The notes below the pieces were generated by a model. It was not told the DNA's origin. It did not search any database and worked only from the letters and a program-made list of their open reading frames with translations. A stretch of DNA of 32,522 nucleotides from Candidatus Bathyarchaeota archaeon (GTDB lineage: Archaea > Thermoproteota > Bathyarchaeia > Bathyarchaeales > Bathycorpusculaceae), in assembly GCA_026414525.1 (NCBI GenBank), contig JAOAIV010000005.1:1-32522 (forward strand), in the 5' to 3' direction. Shown in pieces: positions 27,315 through 28,562 of this stretch. The position numbers and the translations under genes are program-made. Positions within the stretch are counted from its first letter, which is position 1; each line of letters opens with the position of its first letter.

Positions 27315-27342
27315 TCACGTATAGCATAACAGCAAGTAATCT

Positions 27343-27372
27343 CATGTCACGCGAATGATAATTCGTGTCATG
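27343..27372 (+). promoter_or_regulatory. Imperfect inverted repeat in the dnaG leader
   Basis: CATGTCACG on the left pairs with CGTGTCATG on the right (one T-T mismatch), with further AAT/ATT pairing inside. It could be an operator next to the transcript start or a leader hairpin. No regulator is known for it. Confidence 0.4.
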
Positions 27373-27419
27373 CGATTAACCTTAACTGAATGTAACTTGC
27401 ACATTGGAGGTGCACGCTT

Positions 27420-28562
27420 ACGGGATCATCACAGACATTTACCATAAAGTATATTATACATGCTAAATTTGAGATAGAAGGCGTAGTAGAGAAACCTGAT
27501 GTTATAGGCGCAGTTTTTGGTCAAACTGAAGGACTTTTCGGGCCTGAACTTGATCTTAGAGAACTGCAGAAAACTGGCAGAATAGGCAGAATTGAAATTG
27601 AGCTACATTCGAAAAATGACCGCACCACGGGCACAATAACGGTGCCAACAAGCTTAGATCGCGTTAGCACAGCATTAATTGCCGCGAGCATAGAAAGTAT
27701 AAACCGCGTCGGGCCTTGTGCAGCCAAGGTTGTGCTAGACCGCGTTGAAGACGTGCGTGAAGCAAGACGTAAATTAATCATCGACCGCGCTAAGGAGATT
27801 CTGCATAAGTGGAATATTGAGTCGATGCCAAGCGTAGATGAAGTCTACAAGCAGATTTCTGACACGATGAAAATTGGTAGGGTTGAGAAATATGGGCCAG
27901 AAGAGCTTCCTGCCGGTCCAGAATTGGAGAATGCAAAGGAAATTATTATTGTTGAAGGCCGCGCAGACGTAATAAACCTAATGCGCTGCGGAATTATGAA
28001 TACTGTAGCGCTTGAGGGCGCGAAGGTTCCAGAATCGATTAAAAAGCTTACACGGGAAAAAGAGGCAACAGCGCTTTTGGACGGAGACAGAGGCGGCGAT
28101 TTGATTCTCAAAGAACTGTTGCAGGTTACGAATATTCGCTATGTTAGCCGTGCGCCTAGAGGCAAAGAAATTGAGGAATGCAATTGCAAAGAAATCTATG
28201 AAGCCTTAGCGGCACGCGTTCCTGTTTCAGAGCTTTTGAAGCCTAAGAAAGAGCGGCCTAAACTTGAAGTACCCGAGGAAATTGTGAAAACAGCAAAGGA
28301 GTTGCAGGGCACGCTTGAGGCAGTTCTTTTAAATGAGAAGCTCGAGCAGATTGAACGGTTGCCTGTGAGCCAATTAGCCGAAAGGTTGCAGCAAGTAGCC
28401 AACGTGGATACAGTAGTTTTCGATGGTATTATTACTCAACGAATTGTGGATATGGCTAGCGAAAAGAACATTAAGCGCATAGTTGCCTCTCGCCTTTCAG
28501 AGGCAGTGAAGCCGGCGTTAAACGTGGAGCTCTTAACCTTTAAGGATGTTCTTCCGGGTTAG
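27420..28562 (+). CDS. dnaG: Archaeal DnaG-type primase, apparent ACG start
   Basis: A 380-residue archaeal DnaG protein with a Toprim domain, linked in other archaea to primer synthesis and to the exosome. The conserved N-terminal domain is complete: KFEIEGVVEKPDVIGAVFGQ, then TEGLFGPELDLRELQKTGRI. The Toprim domain has EIIIVEGRADVINLM and LLDGDRGGDLILKEL. Between the in-frame TAA at 27393 and GTG 27642 there is no ATG, GTG or TTG, and starting at 27642 would delete the conserved first 74 residues. ACG at 27420 lies seven bases after a perfect GGAGGTG (27406-27412) and gives the expected N-terminus. Either ACG is the start or a T-to-C error or mutation hit an ATG. It is convergent with polB and overlaps it by 4 bases. 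Confidence 0.9.
   Translation, partial: TGSSQTFTIKYIIHAKFEIEGVVEKPDVIGAVFGQTEGLFGPELDLRELQKTGRIGRIEIELHSKNDRTTGTITVPTSLDRVSTALIAASIESINRVGPCAAKVVLDRVEDVREARRKLIIDRAKEILHKWNIESMPSVDEVYKQISDTMKIGRVEKYGPEELPAGPELENAKEIIIVEGRADVINLMRCGIMNTVALEGAKVPESIKKLTREKEATALLDGDRGGDLILKELLQVTNIRYVSRAPRGKEIEECNCKEIYEALAARVPVSELLKPKKERPKLEVPEEIVKTAKELQGTLEAVLLNEKLEQIERLPVSQLAERLQQVANVDTVVFDGIITQRIVDMASEKNIKRIVASRLSEAVKPALNVELLTFKDVLPG

Follow-up and report, generated by a model that had tools for sequence, protein, structure and literature searches.

A conserved ACG codon as the probable translation start of dnaG in a family of Bathyarchaeia

Where does translation of dnaG begin at a locus whose reading frame opens without any standard start codon? 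The question is raised by a 32,522-nucleotide stretch of DNA (the window) from a draft metagenome-assembled Bathyarchaeia genome that is about 85% complete. Direct reading of the dnaG frame between the in-frame TAA at 27393 and the GTG at 27642 revealed no ATG, GTG or TTG. This absence, together with an in-frame ACG following a full Shine-Dalgarno sequence, had been described in the original prediction and is confirmed here. The same prediction had anticipated that automatic annotation would begin at the GTG and lose the N-terminal domain, which is borne out by the list of open reading frames. The features discussed are the following.

27420-28562, + strand: dnaG coding sequence from ACG to TAG, 380 codons, stop codon at 28560-28562, with RNA-binding N-terminal domain, TOPRIM domain and C-terminal domain
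27420-27422, + strand: putative ACG start codon, in frame with dnaG (conservation in the family and sequence)
27406-27412, + strand: Shine-Dalgarno sequence GGAGGTG, followed by 7 nt (CACGCTT) and then the ACG (sequence)
27393-27395, + strand: TAA in frame, upstream of the start (sequence)
27447-27452, + strand: Lys-Tyr codons of the N-terminal domain (translation; PMC4227792)
27642-27644, + strand: GTG, first canonical in-frame codon, internal, at which ORF calling begins
27338-27386, + strand: inverted repeat AATCNCRTG...CAYGNGATT with an inner stem (potential leader hairpin), then a conserved downstream motif (covariance model, covariation)

The dnaG frame is intact from 27420 to 28562 and occurs as a single copy in the genome. 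Its product matched the archaeal DnaG model NF003108 of NCBIfam from residue 10 onwards with 468.6 bits against a cut-off of 300 (E 2.2e-140), and the TOPRIM domain was recognized by Pfam Toprim_4 (PF13662, E 3e-8). The 74 residues encoded 5' of GTG 27642 match the DnaG N-terminal domain, including the invariant Lys-Tyr pair of this RNA-binding domain, which lies in IKYIIH (residues 9-14 counting from the ACG). Translation from 27642 would lose this pair, which matches the K6Y7 pair of S. solfataricus DnaG that is essential for RNA binding (PMC4227792). An out-of-frame GTG at 27410 lies inside the Shine-Dalgarno sequence; a programmed frameshift from this codon was rejected, since the GTG is not conserved and its frame closes after 18 codons.

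The dnaG loci for comparison were taken from the genome contigs of relatives and from a set of 256 genomes belonging to the class, and the homologous codon was identified by its distance of 32 codons upstream of the FGQTEGL motif. In the GTDB family of the window (f1), this codon was ACG in 71 of 78 readable loci, ATG in seven and never anything else, so that the alignment of the 5' region with relatives proposed in the original prediction shows the ACG to be homologous and conserved. The ATG cases comprise five loci of the Bathycorpusculum group and the genomes G132 and G114, in the latter of which the ATG seems to have been created by a small indel. The nearest relative, with 97% DnaG identity, has the same ACG as the window, the position of the Shine-Dalgarno sequence is conserved within the family, and sisters with ATG at exactly the ACG codon position keep the same spacing to it. 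Of the two options originally offered, genuine non-AUG initiation is supported by this sharing of ACG among most family members, whereas an isolated T-to-C change is excluded by the same ACG in relatives and by ATG at exactly that codon in a few of them.

Among the loci first fetched from other families of the order, ACG was found in six loci of f4, one of f6 and two of f9, and later sampling added three f4 genomes with an ACG start; relatives of these loci have ATG or TTG in this position. A tree of the order, built on 105 columns and poorly resolved at many forks, calls for 10 switches between ACG and a canonical codon. A wider sample comprised forty further start regions, mostly from other Thermoproteota families; apart from the three f4 genomes with ACG, all those containing the motif had a canonical ATG, TTG or GTG close to the N-terminus. 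A separate observation concerns three Thorarchaeota dnaG genes (L299-L301), which are without ATG, GTG or TTG near the start and have AGGAG followed after six bases by ATA or ATT; these genes may start at AUA or AUU.

The ACG does not behave as an ordinary threonine codon. Threonine in residues 2-100 of the family's DnaG is encoded by ACA (328), ACC (188), ACT (105) and ACG (71), the last thus accounting for about 10%, and all seven conserved threonine columns show mixed codons, whereas the start column holds only ACG or ATG. The codons upstream of the ACG are variable, not protein-like and include stops. Parsimony on the family tree gave 3 substitutions at the second base of the start codon; C/T-only third positions averaged 12.8 (range 3-20) and fourfold sites 23.6. 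Synonymous sites are an imperfect neutral yardstick for a second codon position, and the 105-column tree is poorly resolved. The non-canonical start is kept in orthologs beyond synonymous expectation. ATG is a single C-to-T step away from ACG, yet rare, which indicates selection against ATG. Taken together, the ACG/ATG pattern, the low share of ACG elsewhere and the few changes of the start codon provide good support for regarding the ACG as a fixed, selectively kept start of dnaG in this family and not as an error.

Our preferred reading, to which we assign a probability of about 0.8 on the basis of the sequences compared, is that dnaG of this family starts at ACG, decoded by Met-tRNAi with the help of the Shine-Dalgarno sequence, and that initiation is kept weak by selection. 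The initiator tRNA-Met found in the genome is canonical (CAU anticodon, A1-U72, GGG/CCC anticodon stem), so that an altered initiator tRNA was rejected and near-cognate decoding of ACG with Shine-Dalgarno help represents the simplest mechanism. The strong Shine-Dalgarno sequence would place the 30S subunit at the ACG, where Met-tRNAi would pair by the first and third bases and leave a C-A mismatch in the middle. Full-length DnaG, probably with Met as its first residue, would then be made at a low rate, and this lower yield would itself be the selected trait, C-to-T mutations giving ATG being mostly removed. The purpose of a low DnaG level, named in the original prediction, is consistent with such selective maintenance. 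Regulation of the DnaG level via the ACG is plausible, and there might be a need to limit or regulate this RNA-binding exosome cap protein, possibly jointly with the upstream inverted repeat. Since ACG should initiate poorly, it is also conceivable that the C itself is under equal constraint for another role, as part of an RNA element or as an editing site.

Among the rival explanations, C-to-U editing that turns the genomic ACG into AUG in the dnaG mRNA fares best, and is nevertheless improbable. No C-to-U editing of mRNA is known to us from archaea, which counts against it. The restriction of the start codon to ACG and ATG is the pattern expected of an editing site, but the absence of GTG and TTG is expected anyway, both being two substitutions from ACG. 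A precedent exists in plastids, where the ACG starts of psbL, ndhD and rpl2 are edited to AUG (PMC9845219).

It is still less probable that the internal GTG at 27642 is the true start and that the N-terminal part is not made. This GTG is the sole canonical in-frame codon and is picked by mechanical ORF calling, but the 74 codons upstream of it encode the conserved RNA-binding domain with a coding bias of 21.9 bits and show synonymous-type variation, and relatives have their first canonical codon downstream at widely differing places, 11 to 135 codons past the ACG. Just as doubtful is decoding of the ACG by a tRNA for threonine, or by an undetected initiator with CGU, giving an N-terminal threonine. 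Nothing specific speaks for it, although a second initiator tRNA could be missed in a genome of this completeness; the initiator found has CAU and normal features, and the alternation of ATG with ACG implies methionine. A start at a canonical codon slightly upstream (GTG or TTG at -3, ATG at -2 or -5) is very unlikely for the family and is refuted for the window by its sequence: such a codon occurs in 28 of 80 ACG loci, mostly at -3, but most of these are the GTG inside the Shine-Dalgarno sequence itself, and none lies between the upstream stop and the ACG in the other 52, the window included. Finally, a sequencing or assembly error at base 27421 (true base T) can be dismissed for practical purposes despite the draft metagenomic origin of the window, since the nearest relative shares this C, as do about 80 genomes that were assembled separately.

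The preferred reading of a weak, selectively kept ACG start has a possible companion in the inverted repeat, which lies about 34-82 nt before the ACG in the family and, in the window, between the divergent pyrG and dnaG. Folding z-scores of the leader averaged -2.9 in the family, with 42 of 51 below -2, compared to +0.7 for coding controls; most of the order's other families lay at about 0, with f6 intermediate (-1.9). With a covariance model, the element was recovered at a matching position in most of the family's loci, and no locus from another family gave a hit; the window, which was among the 14 sequences from which the model was built, scored 53.7 bits (E 2e-9). In 31 loci, 7 of 15 pairs had changed on both sides, and the covariation score was 0.219 versus 0.128 in shuffles and below 0.08 in all slid controls, in an alignment fitted to the structure, which favours the structure. 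RNAalifold on a MAFFT alignment gave no pairs, the arms being misaligned, and a hand-set structure and the covariance model were used instead. Since G-U pairs (14) are not in excess of A-C mismatches (22), the element may be either an RNA hairpin or a DNA operator. Two ATG-start members of the family (L049, L057) have hairpins as well, and the element is therefore not strictly tied to the ACG. A known RNA family was rejected as the identity of the leader, for which Rfam gave no match.

To see how far ACG starts extend beyond dnaG, coding potential ahead of the first canonical start was scanned in 398 kb of a relative with ACG-start dnaG (G121) and in the window (260 coding ORFs), a scan blind to genes in which the ACG is soon followed by a canonical codon. 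In G121, dnaG came out on top (32.5 bits) with few others, so that wholesale use of ACG was rejected, and among 211 pairs of orthologs shared with a close relative, 181 have a canonical codon near the start in common; ACG starts are therefore rare. A free scan for non-canonical starts with Shine-Dalgarno spacing was too noisy for use. An ABC-2-type permease gene adjoining an ABC ATPase gene (G121:C1:152524-153297 and homologs, L223-L244) carries ACG at the corresponding start position in 14 loci of the same family (14/14, versus 27% ACG among the gene's other threonine codons), while other homologs have GTG at this position or one of ATG, GTG and TTG two to three codons upstream. In three loci (L226, L227, L229) the ACG directly follows TGA or TAG, and because the permease start adjoins the upstream stop in several loci, translational coupling may help it. 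ACG start use thus appears, from these sequences, to be rare but not confined to dnaG. Two other genes drew attention. A methyltransferase-like gene has ATA in L253 and L254 where the homologs L255-L258 have ATG, a possible AUA start; a gene near 320477 (-) of G121:C1 and its G120 ortholog have GGAGG, seven bases and then ATC with no shared canonical start, a possible AUC start.

A broader proposal is that ACG belongs to the family's regular, if rarely used, start codons, serving two or more unrelated genes, and that in dnaG it works together with a structured 5' leader through which the RNA-binding DnaG protein would control its own synthesis; we regard this as tentative and rather unlikely.

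In archaea, AUG, GUG and UUG are the start codons described (PMC7531240); for 61,358 prokaryotic AUG starts reconstructed in one survey, the reported switches went to GUG, UUG, CUG and AUU, without mention of ACG (PMC5622118). No report of archaeal ACG starts was found in open-access text, such absence being weak evidence. A family-wide kept ACG start, if true, would extend the range of codons known to be decoded in archaeal initiation, and gene-finders restricted to ATG, GTG and TTG would cut the RNA-binding domain from DnaG in these genomes.

The closest likeness to a known system is offered by infC of E. coli, an essential gene whose AUU start follows a good Shine-Dalgarno sequence, has been kept in evolution and is thought to hold expression down, with autoregulation by IF3. 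The codon and the domain of life differ, and since DnaG does not serve as an initiation factor, the feedback loop of infC is not directly applicable. The edited plastid genes resemble dnaG in having a genomic ACG where relatives have ATG, but editing is established for the plastid transcripts and would be improbable for dnaG of this family. DnaG of other Thermoproteota is the same protein, with N-terminal and TOPRIM domains, and has a canonical codon close to its N-terminus in the genomes sampled outside the order. Initiation at ACG in eukaryotes and viruses (a mammalian ACG triplet, yeast non-AUG starts) shares the near-cognate codon, probably decoded by Met-tRNAi, and differs in that dnaG has a Shine-Dalgarno sequence and conservation across a whole prokaryotic family. 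Since e/aIF1, e/aIF1A and e/aIF2 are common to archaea and eukaryotes (PMC7531240), dnaG of this family may represent a natural system for near-cognate initiation with factors that eukaryotes share.
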